Assembly: GCA_001602415.1 (NCBI GenBank)
Contig: CP012155.1
Span: 1-64,000, forward strand
Length of the DNA: 64,000 nt
Reading direction: 5' to 3'
DNA from: Bacteroidetes bacterium UKL13-3
GTDB taxonomy: Bacteria; Bacteroidota; Bacteroidia; UKL13-3
The notes under the pieces are model-generated. The model did no database searches, was not told where the DNA came from, and saw nothing but the letters and a program-made list of their open reading frames with translations. This document shows, one piece after another, positions 30,381-59,992 of the stretch (positions are counted from its first letter, which is position 1; every line of letters begins with the position of its first letter). Made by a program: the position numbers and the translations under genes.

Positions 30381-31673
30381 CTAAAAGTTCACTTGTGCTT
30401 GAATACGAAGTAAGCTACCCCTTTGGCGATTGTTTTGCAAAGTATAATCTTCAAATCTTCTGTCTGAGGTTGTATACATTACCACAAGTTCAAACGTTTT
30501 ATACGGTTGCCATTCAATTCCTGTTTCAATTTCTTTTACGTTGTAACTTCGTGCATCTCTCTCATGCTTTTTTCCCCCTTCATATACCTGATAACGAACA
30601 AAGGGATAAAATAGCTGATTGTTAACCTTAATCATGTAATTAAACAATGCGTATCCACCGCTTAAATTTCGTGTTTCAATGGCTCCCGTATTTTTATTGA
30701 ATTGTGGTCCTTTTCCAATATTATACTCTGCAAAAATTCCAAATGGTTTTGGATACAAAACGAACGTTGCAGCTGCTCGCTGGTCTAAATATGTTAAGTT
30801 AGAAACGGCAGACACTCCCTTGGAGAGTTGATCAGCGCTTATGGTGTATTTTCCCGTATATGCCTGAACTCCTGCTTCTATTATCTGGTTTTTATACTCA
30901 AAAGGCATTGTTATTCGGGCTACATAATGAAGTTCATTGTTAGCTTCAGGTCTATTAGCTATTTGTCCGTTGTAAGCACCTATCGCAAAAATACCATAGT
31001 CGCCACTGCCTTTTAATCCATCACGAACCAATGATGAAAAAAGTTCACGTTTCTTTTTGGGTGCCCAATAAAAGAAAACACCAAGATCGCGCTCATTTGC
31101 TGCAGCACTGTTCAATGCATCATTTCTATCCAGGGCTAGTCGGTTTTGACTGGATTGCATATTTTCAAATCCATAAGGAATCTTGCTCTGACCTATACGG
31201 AAACGAAACTCGTTGTTATCATCTAATCCTAGATCAAAATAGGCATCACGCAACTGACCATAATTAAGCGCATTCGTTGAGGTTGAACTTGCAAAATCTG
31301 GTTGAACATACAAATAGACTCTTTTACTTAATTGTCCAAAAAGGATAATACGCATTCGTCTGATAAAAAATCCATTTCCATCGCCCCACGATCTGTCGCA
31401 TTGTTCACATTTTAGTTGACTATTGGTTTCCAACAAACGATTGTAACGAACTTGCATATATCCTCTAATAGCAACATTATCATACCAATTAGTTTTTTTA
31501 GGAGCTATCTCCATTGGTATTGCGTTTGGTTGAATAACTGTTTGTGATATTAGTGTAGGCTGTTGCGGCTTAACTAAGATTGTTTGATTGCTATCCGTTT
31601 GTCCGTTAACCGTTAAGCCAAATAAAATTGCGGAAAGAAAAAGTAACGCTTGTAAATGTTTTGCCATGAGCAT
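30381..31673 (-). CDS. Phosphate-selective porin (OprO/OprP family)
   Basis: 430 residues: signal peptide (LQALLFLSAILFGLTVNGQ), short Pro/Gln-rich spacer, then a beta-barrel of the porin O/P family (IRGYMQVRYNRLLE, RRMRIILFGQLSKRVYLYVQPDF, FRFRIGQSKIPYGFENMQSSQ, closing RIQAQVNF with the terminal phenylalanine). Such porins admit phosphate or polyphosphate. The phosphate role is supported by the direct-repeat array 33 bp upstream of the start. Two ATGs (31673, 31667) are possible starts. Outer membrane. Confidence 0.88.
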   Translation of the reverse strand: MLMAKHLQALLFLSAILFGLTVNGQTDSNQTILVKPQQPTLISQTVIQPNAIPMEIAPKKTNWYDNVAIRGYMQVRYNRLLETNSQLKCEQCDRSWGDGNGFFIRRMRIILFGQLSKRVYLYVQPDFASSTSTNALNYGQLRDAYFDLGLDDNNEFRFRIGQSKIPYGFENMQSSQNRLALDRNDALNSAAANERDLGVFFYWAPKKKRELFSSLVRDGLKGSGDYGIFAIGAYNGQIANRPEANNELHYVARITMPFEYKNQIIEAGVQAYTGKYTISADQLSKGVSAVSNLTYLDQRAAATFVLYPKPFGIFAEYNIGKGPQFNKNTGAIETRNLSGGYALFNYMIKVNNQLFYPFVRYQVYEGGKKHERDARSYNVKEIETGIEWQPYKTFELVVMYTTSDRRFEDYTLQNNRQRGSLLRIQAQVNF

Positions 31674-31699: not shown

Positions 31700-31707
31700 C
31701 AAAAGTG
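31700..31707 (-). promoter_or_regulatory. Candidate -7 box of the porin gene
   Basis: Read on the minus strand CACTTTTG, one mismatch from TAnnTTTG, 27 nt upstream of the porin ATG and abutting the last TTAACA hexamer. Such a position would suit activation by a regulator bound to the array. Confidence 0.3.
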
Positions 31708-31755
31708 TTAAGTAAATATTAATGCAATGTTCTCCATATGTTAATATAATGTTAA
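31706..31755 (-). promoter_or_regulatory. Pho-box-like array of five hexamers at 11-bp spacing
   Basis: On the porin's strand the hexamers TTAACA, TTAACA, AGAACA, TTAATA and TTAACA begin exactly 11 bp apart (plus-strand positions 31750-31755, 31739-31744, 31728-31733, 31717-31722, 31706-31711). This is the arrangement bound in tandem by PhoB/PhoP-type regulators (TTAACA repeats in Bacillus; 11-bp repeats in E. coli). It sits directly upstream of a phosphate-selective porin. Confidence 0.65.
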
Positions 31756-31810: not shown

Positions 31811-31855
31811 GTAACCATTTACCGATGGAGTAATGAGCTTACAATAAATGGTTAC
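31811..31855. promoter_or_regulatory. Perfect 11-bp inverted repeat upstream of the porin
   Basis: GTAACCATTTA (31811-31821) and its exact complement (31845-31855) are separated by 23 nt. No T-run follows, so it is not a clear terminator; it could be an operator or RNA hairpin. The rest of 31856-32161 shows nothing recognisable. Confidence 0.35.
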
Positions 31856-32161: not shown

Positions 32162-34321
32162 TTACAAGCGAACCCAAATTAATCCCGCCTTCCAAAGCGA
32201 ATAAAACACTAATGCAATAAGCAGTATAACAGCTAACGCAAAAGGCCAAAATGGGCGCTTTTTCTTGGTGAAAGGATCGTTTAAATTTATTTTGGCACCG
32301 TGAGGTAATGTTGCAATATGTGTTAGCAAGTTTCCAAATTGAATATTCACAATCACATTTGCATTAATAGCCCAACCGTTAGCATCTAAAATTGGAGCAA
32401 GATTACGCTTACGCAATTTGAGGTATGCCATAATCATTGCCGGTCCGCTAATGAGCAAAATTATACCCGAAAGTGCAAGTGGCATTTTCCACCACGTAAG
32501 TCCCATAAATCCTGCAATAACGGATGCAATGGCTGTTCCAATAGCACCCAATGCCAAACTAATAGCCGCAAAAATTCCCACAAACTTTCCAATATCAAAG
32601 GGAGGTGCAGGGGCTTTAGGAGCATCTAAGGGGGCATTTATCATTTTCCCTTGTGCATCTTCAATTCCTTTGGTGGTGTTGGCGGTTACTTTATCATCCT
32701 GTGAAGCAGCGAACTTGTTCACCTGTGTTTCGATGAAGCGCGATACTTTGCGGTAAGGCGACCAAAAAGCTTGGCGAATACTAATAGGGTTATCAATTAT
32801 TTTAATGATGGTGGCATCCCAATCTTGCCCTTTTCTATCATAAAATATCGCGTTGCGCCCAACCACCAAATTGTCGATATCACCATTGGTTAAAGCTGCC
32901 AAAACAATCATTTTTTCATTACTTGCTTTTGAGATGCACTCGCAATACATCAAAAACATTCCGCTTAATGTTGCCATGGTTCCATGTTTGTCCATGTCAG
33001 TTACTTTGATACATAGGTCGCAACTGCGTTGATCGATGTACAATGTTCCTGCTTGGAAAATAGCCTTGTATCCAGGAGAATAAAAGTCGAAAAACGTAAC
33101 AAAGTTTTTAAGCAATGTATACAAATCACGATGGTAACGAACCAGTTGGTCTACTTTCATTATGCTATTGGTTTCGTGCTCCAAGGCTTGGTCTTGTTGA
33201 ATAAGAATGTTTAATTCATCAATACACTGTCCCTCAAGAATATTTTTGACACGATCTATTCCCAATGGTTCAACCAAATTATCCTCTTTTTCAGTTTGCC
33301 ATTTCGCAAAATCAGCAAACGCTGTTTCCAACGATTGCCATTCAGTTTCGGTTAATGTTGTTTTCCCAGGAAATTGTTGATGAGCAATAAGTGTATTAAA
33401 TGAATCGATAGCTTTTTCCCAGGCAGGATTGACTCCGTTGATTAGTGGTAAGGGTTTTCCAGCATCAATTTTAGCCAACGGGTAAGTTGCTATTTCATCT
33501 AACGAAACGGATAAATCTTTTTCACTAATAGCCTCTACTCTGGCAACTGAAAGGTTTAACGCAGAAGTTGATTGTGGATCGAAAGCGGCCAAACGACAAC
33601 GGATAAAATAGTCGTCAACTTTAGCTTTTATAGCGGTGTAACGAGCGTATGCCTCAGCACTGTGGTTGCCAAAAGGAAGAAGAGTTTTACTGTTTTGGGC
33701 TTTAGCAAACCAAGCAACATATTTTTTGCAAGCCTCAACAAACTGTTGCAACAACTCTGCAGATATTCCGTGCTTCCCGCCTAAATCCAATACATCACCA
33801 ACACAAGCCATAATTTCTGTGAGCAATTGTTTTTGTTCATCGTTGGCAACAGTATCTTCTGTTATAACACCATCACCATTAAAACGAGCAACGGCAAATA
33901 TTCTTTCGGTGTTTGATGTTTCTTCTACTGTTAAAGCATTTACATCTTCCTTTCCTAAATTGCGTAGTATGATCTTAGCAGATGATAGTAATGTTCTGCC
34001 TTCCTCCGTGCTGCTATTAATCGCGGAAAGGGGAAATACGTGTTCTTGTTTTAATAAATCATCCGGATTTTTGAGAACAGCGGTTATCCATTTCGCGGCT
34101 GCCAGCATTTCGGGAACACGTATGTGTCCATCACCATCAGTATCAATAAGCGCAAGGGTTTTAGGATCAATCTCCAACCCATTAACTGGGCAACTAAGGG
34201 CTGTCCAGAGTTTTTGATCAAGCTGGTCGAGGTGAATTAAGTCGGCACCCGAATCGAGGTTTACACGCTTAACCCCTCCTACTGTAGAGAAATTCCAAAT
34301 ATGTTGGTGAACATGGCTCAT
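32162..34321 (-). CDS. EF-hand membrane protein of unknown function
   Basis: 719 residues from the ATG giving MSHVHQHIWNF. An EF-hand calcium loop DTDGDGHIRVPE lies at about residues 58-69, and a second, degenerate loop ARFNGDGVITED at about 145. A long soluble helical domain (to about 590) precedes two adjacent membrane helices (IFAAISLALGAIGTAIASV and LALSGIILLISGPAMIMAYL) and a third at the C-terminus. No catalytic motif recognised. Ten bases or so separate it from the lycopene-cyclase gene upstream of it on the same strand, so it may be co-transcribed with the carotenoid genes. Confidence 0.75.
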   Translation of the reverse strand: MSHVHQHIWNFSTVGGVKRVNLDSGADLIHLDQLDQKLWTALSCPVNGLEIDPKTLALIDTDGDGHIRVPEMLAAAKWITAVLKNPDDLLKQEHVFPLSAINSSTEEGRTLLSSAKIILRNLGKEDVNALTVEETSNTERIFAVARFNGDGVITEDTVANDEQKQLLTEIMACVGDVLDLGGKHGISAELLQQFVEACKKYVAWFAKAQNSKTLLPFGNHSAEAYARYTAIKAKVDDYFIRCRLAAFDPQSTSALNLSVARVEAISEKDLSVSLDEIATYPLAKIDAGKPLPLINGVNPAWEKAIDSFNTLIAHQQFPGKTTLTETEWQSLETAFADFAKWQTEKEDNLVEPLGIDRVKNILEGQCIDELNILIQQDQALEHETNSIMKVDQLVRYHRDLYTLLKNFVTFFDFYSPGYKAIFQAGTLYIDQRSCDLCIKVTDMDKHGTMATLSGMFLMYCECISKASNEKMIVLAALTNGDIDNLVVGRNAIFYDRKGQDWDATIIKIIDNPISIRQAFWSPYRKVSRFIETQVNKFAASQDDKVTANTTKGIEDAQGKMINAPLDAPKAPAPPFDIGKFVGIFAAISLALGAIGTAIASVIAGFMGLTWWKMPLALSGIILLISGPAMIMAYLKLRKRNLAPILDANGWAINANVIVNIQFGNLLTHIATLPHGAKINLNDPFTKKKRPFWPFALAVILLIALVFYSLWKAGLIWVRL

Positions 34322-34378
34322 AGTGTTTGGTATTGTATAGTTGCCGTAAAAGCGAGCAACAACTTGCAACTAAAATAC

Positions 34379-35095
34379 TCATTTGTGTTTAACAGCCAAG
34401 GTACCTTTACGCTTTATTTTTTTAACCACCAACATTTCCATAACGGTAATTGGGAGCAGTAAGCAAGTAAGTGCATATATGGTATCTTCTACTGGAATGG
34501 TAAAAATGCGGACTCCAATGTTTTCATTATCGTTATACCAAACTACAGGCTTATCTGTAGCGATTCCAGTTAATACCCCGTTAATAATTAAAAATGGAAT
34601 AAGGTGCACAAAATAAGCTAACCAAAAATATCCCATCCAATCCTTGCGCAGAAATAAATAATGAATACTGAGCAGTATAGCCGCTATTAAACAATTGTAA
34701 AACGTATAAGCTTGCGTTGAATTGAACAGGGCTAGAAAGAAAGTTGCTATTAAAAAGAAAAGGGTGATGTGGTGTTTGTTTTTGGCAAAAGGTTCTGTTT
34801 GAATGTATACTTTTAGGCAAGCATAAATAAATACACTACAGTAAGGAATAACAATAAAAAAAAGCCACTCTTCTATGGGTAAATCATTCCATCTAATATT
34901 CCAAACATAGTTGGGATTAAAGCCCCAAACTTTTGTTCGGGCAAACCAACCATCCCACAAAATAAAAATAATAGCATTTAGTGCGATGCCGGTAAAAAGA
35001 CGCCCCCAACTTTTATAGTAAGCAACTTTACGATCAAAGCTAAGTGCAAATGGACCGATGAACGAAAGAAATAGAAGCCACGCGTATAGAGACAT
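34379..35095 (-). CDS. Lycopene cyclase (heterodimeric-type domains fused)
   Basis: 238 residues, about seven membrane segments, with the two repeated lycopene-cyclase-domain signatures: LPIEEWLFF (about 72) and IPVEDTIYAL (about 203), which carry the acidic catalytic residues. This is the CrtYcd fusion form of Bacteroidota. It cyclises one or both ends of lycopene to beta-rings. Lies downstream of crtZ and the cruF-like gene on the same strand. Confidence 0.88.
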   Translation of the reverse strand: MSLYAWLLFLSFIGPFALSFDRKVAYYKSWGRLFTGIALNAIIFILWDGWFARTKVWGFNPNYVWNIRWNDLPIEEWLFFIVIPYCSVFIYACLKVYIQTEPFAKNKHHITLFFLIATFFLALFNSTQAYTFYNCLIAAILLSIHYLFLRKDWMGYFWLAYFVHLIPFLIINGVLTGIATDKPVVWYNDNENIGVRIFTIPVEDTIYALTCLLLPITVMEMLVVKKIKRKGTLAVKHK

Positions 35096-35183: not shown

Positions 35184-35639
35184 CTATTTACTGGTGTTGG
35201 GATCTTTCCAGTATTTTAGGGGCACTACCAACATTCCAAAATTTTCACCCTGCTCTTTGCCCAGATGTTTATGGTGCATTTTATGTGCTCTACGGATGGC
35301 TCTTACATAGCGGTTATTCCAGTGTGTCCAAATTTTAAACCGTTGATGAATAACAATATCATGAACCAAGAAATAACACAATCCGTATAACGAGATCCCA
35401 ATTCCAATATACAAACGAAAATCGCCACCGGCAATCAATCCGCTCATATAACAATAGGCGCTAGGAACTGCAAAAATCAAGAAGAATGAATCATTTTTTT
35501 CAAAAAATCCGGGTTCAACTTGGTGATGGTCTTTATGCAAACACCAGAGTAATCCATGCATTATAAACTTATGCGCAAACCAAGCCATAAACTCCATAAA
35601 AGCGAAAGTAGCAATAACAATAAGTACGTTGATAATCAT
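35184..35639 (-). CDS. crtZ: Beta-carotene hydroxylase
   Basis: 151 residues from the ATG giving MIINVLIVIATF; an in-frame upstream extension overlaps the neighbouring gene and reads as non-protein sequence. The di-iron histidine motifs of the fatty-acid hydroxylase superfamily are complete: HKFIMHG, HKDHH, HDIVIHQRF and HKMHHKH. Adds hydroxyl groups at C3 of beta-rings. Integral membrane. Confidence 0.92.
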   Translation of the reverse strand: MIINVLIVIATFAFMEFMAWFAHKFIMHGLLWCLHKDHHQVEPGFFEKNDSFFLIFAVPSAYCYMSGLIAGGDFRLYIGIGISLYGLCYFLVHDIVIHQRFKIWTHWNNRYVRAIRRAHKMHHKHLGKEQGENFGMLVVPLKYWKDPNTSK

Positions 35640-35661
35640 GGTTAGCGTATAAATGTTGATA

Positions 35662-35669
35662 CAAAAGTA
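35662..35669 (-). promoter_or_regulatory. TAnnTTTG -7 box upstream of crtZ
   Basis: Minus strand TACTTTTG, an exact consensus match, 22 nt before the crtZ ATG. No -33 TTG at the standard 19-20-nt spacing. Confidence 0.35.
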
Positions 35670-35719
35670 AACGGAATCAACCGCAATTTTGTTTTCGAGA
35701 GTTAAAGTTGTTTTAAACC

Positions 35720-36385
35720 TTAATTCATACCGGAGAATAGTATTGGTAAAACATTTAGTCCAACAAAAAAGGTAAGCATTAATCCGTAGAGCCATGTTGC
35801 CAATTTATTTTCGGAATGAATGTTCAATTTTTGGAACAAGTAACTGAAGGCAAAGGCAAAGGCAAACCATGCGGTGTAATTTTGCATCGGAACAGTTTGA
35901 TTTTTCCAGTACCAAAAATCGCAGGTTGGTGCTACTTGTTCGATAAAAATGTCAACCAAAACCATCAATAATGCAGCTAAAGTAGCTTTAGGAAGCCATG
36001 AATTAAGCTTGGCTGATTTTGCAAACAAACGCGTAGCAATAACCGATGAGCAATAGTTAAGCAACAACCAATTTATGCCAATAATAATGGGTACATCAAG
36101 CAATTTGTAGCCTAAATTATTCCCATAAAAATATTGTCCGAATATTTTACCTGTTTCTACTCCTGCCCATTCTAAGAGCCATCCGCACACAAAAACTATT
36201 ATGGCGTACAATACAAACCTCAGGTCAATATTTACATGATTGAGAAAGAGTAAGAATGCACTTATGATAAGGTTTACAGCCGTAAGATGCATCAAATCCA
36301 ATCCCAAAAAAACGGTTCCAAACAATCCAACTGCATACAAAATACACAAGATAAAAATCGAAATACGTGTTTTTGTTAATTTCAT
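35720..36385 (-). CDS. CruF-like carotenoid biosynthesis membrane protein
   Basis: 221 residues, seven or eight membrane segments, in the DUF422/CruF family; the conserved LLEWAGVETGKIFGQYFYG segment (about 69-87) and DIFIEQVAP (about 145) are visible. CruF is a carotenoid 1',2'-hydratase acting on the acyclic end of gamma-carotene-type pigments. With crtZ and the cyclase it predicts a monocyclic product such as a saproxanthin- or myxol-like carotenoid. Confidence 0.82.
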   Translation of the reverse strand: MKLTKTRISIFILCILYAVGLFGTVFLGLDLMHLTAVNLIISAFLLFLNHVNIDLRFVLYAIIVFVCGWLLEWAGVETGKIFGQYFYGNNLGYKLLDVPIIIGINWLLLNYCSSVIATRLFAKSAKLNSWLPKATLAALLMVLVDIFIEQVAPTCDFWYWKNQTVPMQNYTAWFAFAFAFSYLFQKLNIHSENKLATWLYGLMLTFFVGLNVLPILFSGMN

Positions 36386-58170: not shown

Positions 58171-59304
58171 TTGCCTAAAATTATTTATATTTTGAAACTG
58201 AATAAAACCCGTGTTGTATTTGGTATTGTTACCGTTTACATTGTTGCCGCTTTTGGTTGGTGGACCTTTGCCCATATTCGTTCGAGCAGGATATTATATG
58301 CTTCCGAACATAATCATTTAGAATTGCTTTGCTACAAAGCAACGCTCGACATGAATGGAATGATATCGGAGGAAATTGTTGACGACACTTTGAAAGGCAA
58401 AGAGTTTTTACAAGCCAATTATCCTCAACTAGAAGTAGTGTTTGACGAGACATTACCACCACTCGAAAACTTCCTCATTCGCCCCAAAGAACAATCTTAC
58501 CTTGATTTAGAAGCTCGTCACCAACGCACCATTAGAATGTATACTTTGGAAGGATTGGTAATGATGGGCTTTTTATTTTGGGGTATCATTTGGATATACA
58601 GAAACCTCAACAATCGCCTTAAATTAAGACGACAACAGAGTAACTTTTTACTATCCATTACACATGAGCTAAAAACACCATTAGCCTCCATAAAACTGTA
58701 TCTTGAAACACTGCAAAAGCGCACTTTAAGTAAAGAGCAAGCAGCAACCATTGTGGCAAATTCGTTGGAAGATGTTTCCCGTTTGCGAGATTTGGTTGAC
58801 AATGTATTGATAGCCGCACAGCTGGACAACAGCAAATATGAGTTACACAAGTTTGAGATCAACCTCACCGATACCATCGAAAAAGCTGTAAATCGTTTTG
58901 TAACGCCCCGCAATATTCAATCGCGCGTAAATATGCATCTCGAAAAGGAGGTTTTTTATACTACGGATGCCACTGCGGTTGAAATGGTTGTAAACAATTT
59001 GTTGAGTAACGCTGTTAAGTATTCTCCTGAAGTTGGAAAAGTAGATATTGTGCTTCGTACAACACCGTCAAACATTATACTGGCCGTGAGTGACGAGGGG
59101 CAAGGAATAACAGATGAAGACAAGAGTAGCATTTTTACTCAGTTTTACCGATCGGGTGATGAACAAACCCGAAAAAGCAAGGGAACTGGACTAGGCTTAT
59201 ACATTGTCAAGAATCTGTTAAACCTTATGGAAGGGGAGATTAAAGTAAAAGACAACCAAACTAAAGGAACTACATTCGAACTAATCTTTAAAAAGGATGC
59301 ATAG
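58171..59304 (+). CDS. Sensor histidine kinase
   Basis: 377 residues from TTG (a second TTG at 58195 is possible). A membrane helix (VVFGIVTVYIVAAFGWWTF), a periplasmic domain of about 95 residues, a second helix (GLVMMGFLFWGIIWIY), HisKA with FLLSITHELKTPLASIKLYLE and HATPase with NNLLSNAVKYS, DEGQGI and GTGLGLYIV. Intact, unlike the hybrid kinase at 16909-18986. Overlaps the response regulator by 8 bp. No PAS or HAMP recognised; the signal is unknown. Confidence 0.93.
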   Translation: MPKIIYILKLNKTRVVFGIVTVYIVAAFGWWTFAHIRSSRILYASEHNHLELLCYKATLDMNGMISEEIVDDTLKGKEFLQANYPQLEVVFDETLPPLENFLIRPKEQSYLDLEARHQRTIRMYTLEGLVMMGFLFWGIIWIYRNLNNRLKLRRQQSNFLLSITHELKTPLASIKLYLETLQKRTLSKEQAATIVANSLEDVSRLRDLVDNVLIAAQLDNSKYELHKFEINLTDTIEKAVNRFVTPRNIQSRVNMHLEKEVFYTTDATAVEMVVNNLLSNAVKYSPEVGKVDIVLRTTPSNIILAVSDEGQGITDEDKSSIFTQFYRSGDEQTRKSKGTGLGLYIVKNLLNLMEGEIKVKDNQTKGTTFELIFKKDA

Positions 59305-59992
59305 AATACTATTAGTTGAAGACGAAGAACATTTGCAACACGCACTTAAGTTAAATCTTGAGATGGAAAACTACACTGTTTTTGCAGTGGGCGATGGTAA
59401 CAGTGCAGTTAAAGCATTTAGAGAACAAAAGTTCGATTTGGTTGTGCTGGATATTATGCTTCCCGAAATGGATGGTTTAATGGTATGCGAGCACATCCGC
59501 CTGCATGATTCAGATGTACCGGTATTGTTTTTGTCGGCCAAAAACACTCCAGCCGATCGAATCAATGGGTTGCGCAAAGGTGCAGATGATTACCTTACCA
59601 AACCATTCGACTTGGAAGAACTTATTTTGCGTGTAGGTAAACTGATTGAGAAAAAAGAAAAACTGATCAAATCTGAATCAGGAAAGTTGCCAACGGAATA
59701 TGCGTTTGGTGACAATACGATAAACTTTGAAAGCTACGAAGCTCAAGGCATCAATGGTAAAATAGAACTCACCAAAAAAGAGATTTTGCTCATGAAATTA
59801 CTCATTGAAAATACCAATCAAGTTGTGAGCCGTGAACATATTTTAAAAGTTGTTTGGGATTATACCGTAATACCTAATACACGTACTATCGACAATTTTA
59901 TACTATCGCTCCGAAAACATTTTGAAAGAGATCCGAAAAATCCGGAGTTCATTCAGAGTGTTCGAGGTGTAGGGTACAAATTTGTGGCGTAA
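59297..59992 (+). CDS. OmpR-family response regulator
   Basis: 231 residues: receiver (about 1-118: LVEDEEHL, phospho-acceptor Asp in VVLDIMLPEMDG, KPFD) and a winged-helix DNA-binding domain (about 135-231: LTKKEILLMKLLIENTNQVVSREHILKVVWDYT, RTIDNFILSLRKHFE). Partner of the kinase encoded just upstream. Members of this family bind direct repeats at about 11-bp spacing, like the array before the porin; a link is only a suggestion. Confidence 0.95.
   Translation: MHRILLVEDEEHLQHALKLNLEMENYTVFAVGDGNSAVKAFREQKFDLVVLDIMLPEMDGLMVCEHIRLHDSDVPVLFLSAKNTPADRINGLRKGADDYLTKPFDLEELILRVGKLIEKKEKLIKSESGKLPTEYAFGDNTINFESYEAQGINGKIELTKKEILLMKLLIENTNQVVSREHILKVVWDYTVIPNTRTIDNFILSLRKHFERDPKNPEFIQSVRGVGYKFVA

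Follow-up and report, generated by a model that had tools for sequence, protein, structure and literature searches.

The locus raises the question of whether a row of near-identical hexamers in front of a porin gene is a Pho box, through which a PhoB-type regulator would switch the gene. We examined a stretch of 64,000 nucleotides (the window) together with the rest of the genome and its relatives. A preliminary description had reported five TTAACA-type hexamers at exact 11-bp spacing before a phosphate-selective porin, and a check of the letters bore this out. On the porin's strand (minus, 31755-31706) the array reads, 5′ to 3′, TTAACA-ttata-TTAACA-tatgg-AGAACA-ttgca-TTAATA-tttac-TTAACA, each step being exactly 11 bp; it consists, as a Pho box does, of direct repeats on one strand with an 11-bp period. 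Its end (31706) is separated by 32 bases from the first ATG of the porin at 31673. The five-hexamer pattern, with three mismatches allowed in total, matched once in the window against 0.00 expected from 100 dinucleotide shuffles. A single 11-bp hexamer pair with up to two mismatches occurred at chance level (25 seen, 23.5 expected); since such pairs are commonplace in the window, the evidence lies in the length of the array and in its conservation. Coordinates are collected in Table 1.

Table 1. Coordinates of the array, the porin gene and other genes discussed (window positions unless preceded by C1)
Feature	Position	Strand	Remark
Porin gene, Porin_O_P (PF07396), 430 aa	30381..31673	-	profile match and fold
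Probable Bacteroidota -7 element CACTTTTG (consensus TAnnTTTG)	31700..31707	-	kept at one 11-bp phase to the array among relatives; published consensus
Hexamer 5, TTAACA	31706..31711	-	over the -7 element, 2-base overlap; role uncertain
Hexamer 4, TTAATA	31717..31722	-	in the promoter spacer; weaker position in relatives
Half-site 3, AGAACA (2 mismatches)	31728..31733	-	start 26 bp 5′ of the -7 element, at the place of a would-be -33 element
Half-site 2, TTAACA	31739..31744	-	start 37 bp 5′ of the -7 element
Half-site 1, TTAACA	31750..31755	-	start 48 bp 5′ of the -7 element
Perfect 11-nt inverted repeat, GTAACCATTTA / TAAATGGTTAC	31811..31821 and 31845..31855		23-nt loop
735-aa protein	32162..34369	-	5′ of the porin, same strand
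Likely carotenoid cluster	34379..35095, 35184..35795, 35720..36385	-	includes a lycopene cyclase domain protein
Histidine kinase	58171..59304	+	paired with the 59297 regulator; part of the rival reading
OmpR-family response regulator, RpaB/YycF/MtrA-like	59297..59992	+	rival reader; not the PhoB orthologue
TonB receptor	C1:286602		
PiT	C1:1321544-1322947		
PhoB-like regulator	C1:1871158-1871856		probable reader of the array
PhoB-like regulator with PnpS/PhoR-like kinase (pair)	C1:1870109-1871856		outside the window

The porin matched PF07396 with an E-value of 3.8e-27 (95.9 bits, cut-off 20.9) and so belongs to this family. In VIA-align, its AlphaFold model (mean pLDDT 82.6, built from 32 aligned sequences) was best matched by OprO (4rjw) and OprP (2o4v) with a Z of 25.0, the next other porin reaching 22.8, and on this ranking the predicted fold was taken to be OprP/OprO-like; Foldseek ranked OmpF-type porins on top. 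No sequence-level match for the porin profile was found among solved (PDB) structures. Family and modelled fold together suggest that the porin is selective for phosphate. Orthologues more than 50% identical occur in 19 of the 64 genomes of the family, own genome counted. In the intergenic region of the porin, 5′ of the array, we also observed a perfect inverted repeat. The 735-aa protein encoded further 5′ had no Pfam or NCBIfam match, and the genes beyond it are likely a carotenoid cluster, a carotenoid hydroxylase-like protein and a second carotenoid-type membrane protein (both judged by eye) being encoded beside the lycopene cyclase.

The Pho-box reading of the preliminary description was made to depend on conservation of the spacing before orthologous porins and on enrichment before other phosphate genes. 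TTAACA pairs, counted with at most one mismatch and with dinucleotide shuffles as control, numbered 99 at 11 bp, 58 at 22 bp and 38 at 33 bp in the regions 5′ of 97 distinct porin loci, and spacing before orthologous porins peaked at these three distances only. The 99 pairs at 11 bp compare with a shuffle mean of 5.9 (maximum 14) and with about 9 at other spacings. Counted by orthologue, a forward 11-bp pair was present within 250 bp in 55 of 96 and a pair in either orientation in 63, against 4 to 9 forward matches at control spacings of 8-16 bp; no recognisable array was found in the remaining 33, both orientations having been checked. In some orthologues (L095, L097, L102, L106, L135, L150, L164, L166) the array was solely reversed, and might act on the porin or on a divergent gene. 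In consensus the repeats read approximately [CG]TTAACATT, with three bases of no fixed identity after it.

Genes adjoining the porins were then considered. We collected 80 named porin loci from Pedobacter, Hymenobacter, Sediminibacterium, Chitinophagaceae and many Bacteroidota MAGs, and found PiT as a neighbour in 32, DUF47 in 26 and Pst genes in 5. Promoters of DUF47 genes carried 29 11-bp pairs against 1.7 in shuffles, and those of TonB receptors 12 against 0.24. The excess was only mild in 599 other neighbouring promoters (29 pairs at 11 bp, mean 17 for spacings of 12-21 bp), and part of it may come from shared intergenic regions.

The position of the repeats relative to the promoter was examined with the published Bacteroides -7 consensus, TAnnTTTG (PMC4747536). 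Thirteen of 28 porin promoters shared one of the 11 possible phases between hexamer start and -7 start, compared with a mean of 0.5 and a maximum of 4 in shuffles, the second hexamer of a pair starting 26, 37 or 48 bp before the -7 element. When 13 promoters, own porin and own PiT included, were aligned, a TTAACA-like hexamer was present at -48 in 10, at -37 in all 13 and, with up to two mismatches, at -26 in 10, fractions that are inflated because the rows were picked for their fit at these positions; the unbiased evidence for the phase is the count on 28 promoters and the genome scans described below. Position -15, that of hexamer 4, was within one mismatch in 4 of the 13 and within two in 8, and position -4, that of hexamer 5, within one mismatch in 4. 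Since -48, -37 and -26 are conserved among the aligned promoters, hexamers 1-3 of the own porin occupy conserved upstream positions, whereas hexamers 4 and 5 do not and fall in the core promoter, one in the spacer and one over the -7 element. The array thus lies by a promoter at fixed helical phase.

We then scanned 395 genomes of the class for TTAACA-n5-TTAACA-n32-AnnTTTG. This gave 30 sites, among them the own porin promoter, against 1 for the reversed-pattern control, and about two thirds of them precede phosphate-linked genes. The downstream genes comprised five Porin_O_P, three pstS (one a short fragment), one pstC, four Na/Pi cotransporters, three OMPs whose family stands before pstS in another genome, one SixA with a polyphosphate kinase gene, identified by eye, behind it (ppk operon), two PhoB-like regulators (one with a receiver domain only) and two TonB receptors, the others being unrelated or unknown. 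An exact triple-TTAACA scan with variable gaps across the class was dominated by simple repeats and taught us little; anchoring two hexamers to the -7 element gave much cleaner results.

Freeing the gap (20-50) gave offset peaks at 25-27, 37-38 and 48-49, against a background near 1.4 sites per offset, in a histogram of the first 150 sites listed; 60 of these loci were retrieved for gene content. Offset 26 was occupied by two porins, PhoB (71% identical), three PiT, a weak PHO4-like protein, DUF47 and four TonB receptors, and offset 48 by two pstC, one beta-helix gene, one DUF47, one PiT and three porins, otherwise mostly by DUF1573. At offset 27 stood DUF1573, MoxR and others, together with two genes homologous to the weak PHO4-like protein; no clear phosphate gene was found there among the retrieved loci. 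In total, 35 of 69 sites at offsets 26/37/48 were phosphate-linked compared with 2 of 20 at offset 27 (Fisher p 0.0015), a contrast that is no more than suggestive because the sites are phylogenetically non-independent and the classes were drawn post hoc.

A second Bacteroidia gene set (DUF1573, MoxR AAA ATPase, other lipoproteins and secreted proteins) was thus noticed, with TTAACA-n5-TTAACA before TAnnTTTG, often TTAACAAGTCATTAACA, at loci L264-L283 (offset 27) and L291, L293, L295-L298 and L303 (offset 48).

In the own genome, a box-plus-promoter scan with three mismatches returned 27 sites against 19 in the control. Because these totals barely exceed the control, we put weight on PiT and on independently expected genes. 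PiT was the sole site with one mismatch (TTAATA-n5-TTAACA, +26 TACATTTG), and the sites also included the porin and the TonB receptor, where six in-step hexamers were seen by eye (TTAACC +26 TACTTTTG). This receptor and the beta-helix protein that follows it are homologous to a pair that adjoins the porin at five to six loci elsewhere; they also resemble Fjoh_0545/0546 of Flavobacterium johnsoniae, a pair induced by low phosphate (PMC8115612). Searches of this genome, which is 99.96% complete, yielded no PstC, PhoU or Na/Pi cotransporter; the one PiT, with a Pho box in front, was the sole phosphate transporter recovered. The own phoA promoter lacks an array. Hexamers TTAACA, TTAAAC and TTAATA follow at 11-bp steps in the own phoB promoter, where a -7 element is not clearly recognisable at the distance required. 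The box therefore precedes several phosphate-acquisition genes in the own genome and in relatives, and both dependencies of the preliminary reading came out in its favour: spacing is conserved, and enrichment extends to the own PiT and TonB receptor and, class-wide, to pst, NptA, PiT/DUF47, phoB and porins.

Which regulator might read the array was approached by comparing the five OmpR-family regulators encoded in the genome. The best NCBIfam match of one of them is PhoB (TIGR02154/NF053854), under the equivalog cut-off, and it is followed by a PnpS/PhoR-like kinase whose match is likewise under the cut-off; we counted the two as a PhoB/PhoR pair encoded in the genome. In three other genomes the porin has a regulator beside it that shares 54-61% identity with this own PhoB. 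Its orthologues adjoin porin or pst in relatives, and at one locus (L246) the box directly precedes the PhoB gene. Judged from these comparisons, the PhoB orthologue is the likely reader of the array. The regulator at 59297, within the window, was initially read as PhoB because loose clustering had grouped it with the porin-adjacent regulators. Direct comparison showed the latter to be orthologous to the C1 regulator, and this assignment was rejected.

We thus favour, with a probability of roughly 85%, the reading of the array as a Pho box in a PhoB-switched porin promoter, the same switch acting also at PiT and at the TonB-receptor/beta-helix pair. In the model that we propose, the PhoR kinase would phosphorylate PhoB when phosphate is scarce, and PhoB dimers would bind head-to-tail on TTAACA half-sites one helical turn (11 bp) apart, upstream of a Bacteroidota-type -7 promoter element. 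The promoter-proximal half-site would stand in for the -33 element, so that bound PhoB could recruit RNA polymerase and turn on the porin, which would admit phosphate to the periplasm. PiT and the TonB-receptor/beta-helix pair of this genome would be governed in the same way. Binding by PhoB, its activating effect and low phosphate as the signal are predictions from the site and its neighbourhood.

The hexamers themselves could serve a different reader. They belong to a motif class common to other OmpR-family regulators, and because the second gene set (DUF1573, MoxR and others) has similar repeats, the motif alone cannot name PhoB. WalR/YycF boxes are also made of 11-bp-spaced hexamers, some being TTAACA-n5-TTTACA (PMC5405149), and YycF is the second-best NCBIfam match of the 59297 regulator, which reaches 186.9 bits against the NF040534 cut-off of 340 and hence is no WalR/YycF equivalog. 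That this YycF/WalR-like regulator, or another of its family, reads the array under a signal other than phosphate nevertheless appears unlikely: phosphate functions dominate among genes behind the exact geometry, other genomes place the porin beside PiT, DUF47, Pst or PhoB orthologues, and the 59297 regulator shares only about 33% identity with the porin-adjacent regulators, compared with the 54-61% of the own PhoB.

A true Pho box might also repress the porin or just fine-tune it, as hexamers 4 and 5 of the own porin lie on the core promoter and 4 of 13 relatives have a TTAACA-like hexamer at -4. In F. johnsoniae, low phosphate did not induce the OprP-family gene of the phoBR operon (PMC8115612), and for this reason the response of the porin may differ between species. 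In most phosphate promoters, however, strong hexamers are confined to the upstream region (-26 to -48), which fits activation, and we regard repression or fine-tuning as very unlikely. The chance rate of two-mismatch pairs in the window could suggest an accidental array in an AT-rich promoter, devoid of regulatory meaning; against the zero expectation for five hexamers, the spacing conserved in orthologues and the constant phase relative to the -7 element, the probability of this is close to negligible.

Beyond this locus, the scans place what is very probably the same PhoB-type switch, at the same promoter-relative position, before phosphate genes spread over a large Bacteroidota class. We raise as a tentative possibility, more doubtful than not, that Bacteroidia have two regulons with near-identical TTAACA-n5-TTAACA operators, which differ at one or two bases and whose distances to the -7 element are shifted by a single base (26/37/48 for phosphate; 27 and part of 48/49 for DUF1573/MoxR), and that PhoR, in a genome with its own PhoBR and a PiT under Pho control but without PstSCAB/PhoU, must sense phosphate otherwise. 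How PhoR would do so without PstSCAB and PhoU becomes a testable question. Direct-repeat Pho boxes of 11 nt are classical (PMC4415409) and the Bacteroidota half-site is already partly known. In the open-access literature we found no definition of a Bacteroidota Pho box made of 11-bp repeats, which subscription papers may contain, nor arrays phased to TAnnTTTG, their class-wide spread or the offset-27 set. The earlier statement that such sites are poorly described in the phylum needs qualifying for the half-site, given Riemerella anatipestifer PhoP. Many Bacteroidetes are without Pst (PMC8115612), and phosphate acquisition by this phylum is ecologically important. The definition reached here (11-bp TTAACA half-sites, second hexamer 26, 37 or 48 bp before TAnnTTTG) makes PhoB promoters searchable in a major phylum, and Pho regulons predictable in Bacteroidota genomes and metagenome bins.

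The PhoP box of Bacillus subtilis has a TTAACA-like core, 5-bp spacers and several repeats in a row; the present array resembles it in core, spacers and repetition and differs in phylum and promoter type. Within the phylum, the PhoP of R. anatipestifer (PhoPR) shares the half-site core: in the parts of the report available to us, DAP-seq gave TTTAACA with EMSA support and autoregulation, the motif was called ArcA-like, the 583-peak regulon was discussed with stress on virulence and the Bat operon, binding to the moxR promoter was reported, and neither an 11-bp array nor a promoter phase was described (PMC9603813). Bacteroides fragilis PhoB binds the pstC promoter and is required for its low-phosphate induction, no binding sequence being defined in the accessible part of that work (PMC3547664). 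The PHO regulon of F. johnsoniae has a comparable PhoBR neighbourhood, with OprP-family porin, TonB receptor and beta-helix lipoprotein; it differs in that no Pho box is mentioned and OprP is uninduced in that strain (PMC8115612). In the Escherichia coli Pho box, head-to-tail 11-nt direct repeats before phosphate genes are likewise read by an OmpR-family regulator, PhoB (PMC4415409). There the half-site is CTGTCAT and the promoter has a sigma-70 -10 hexamer, whereas here the half-site is TTAACA(TT), at least three half-sites are common, and the promoter is of the -7 TAnnTTTG type.
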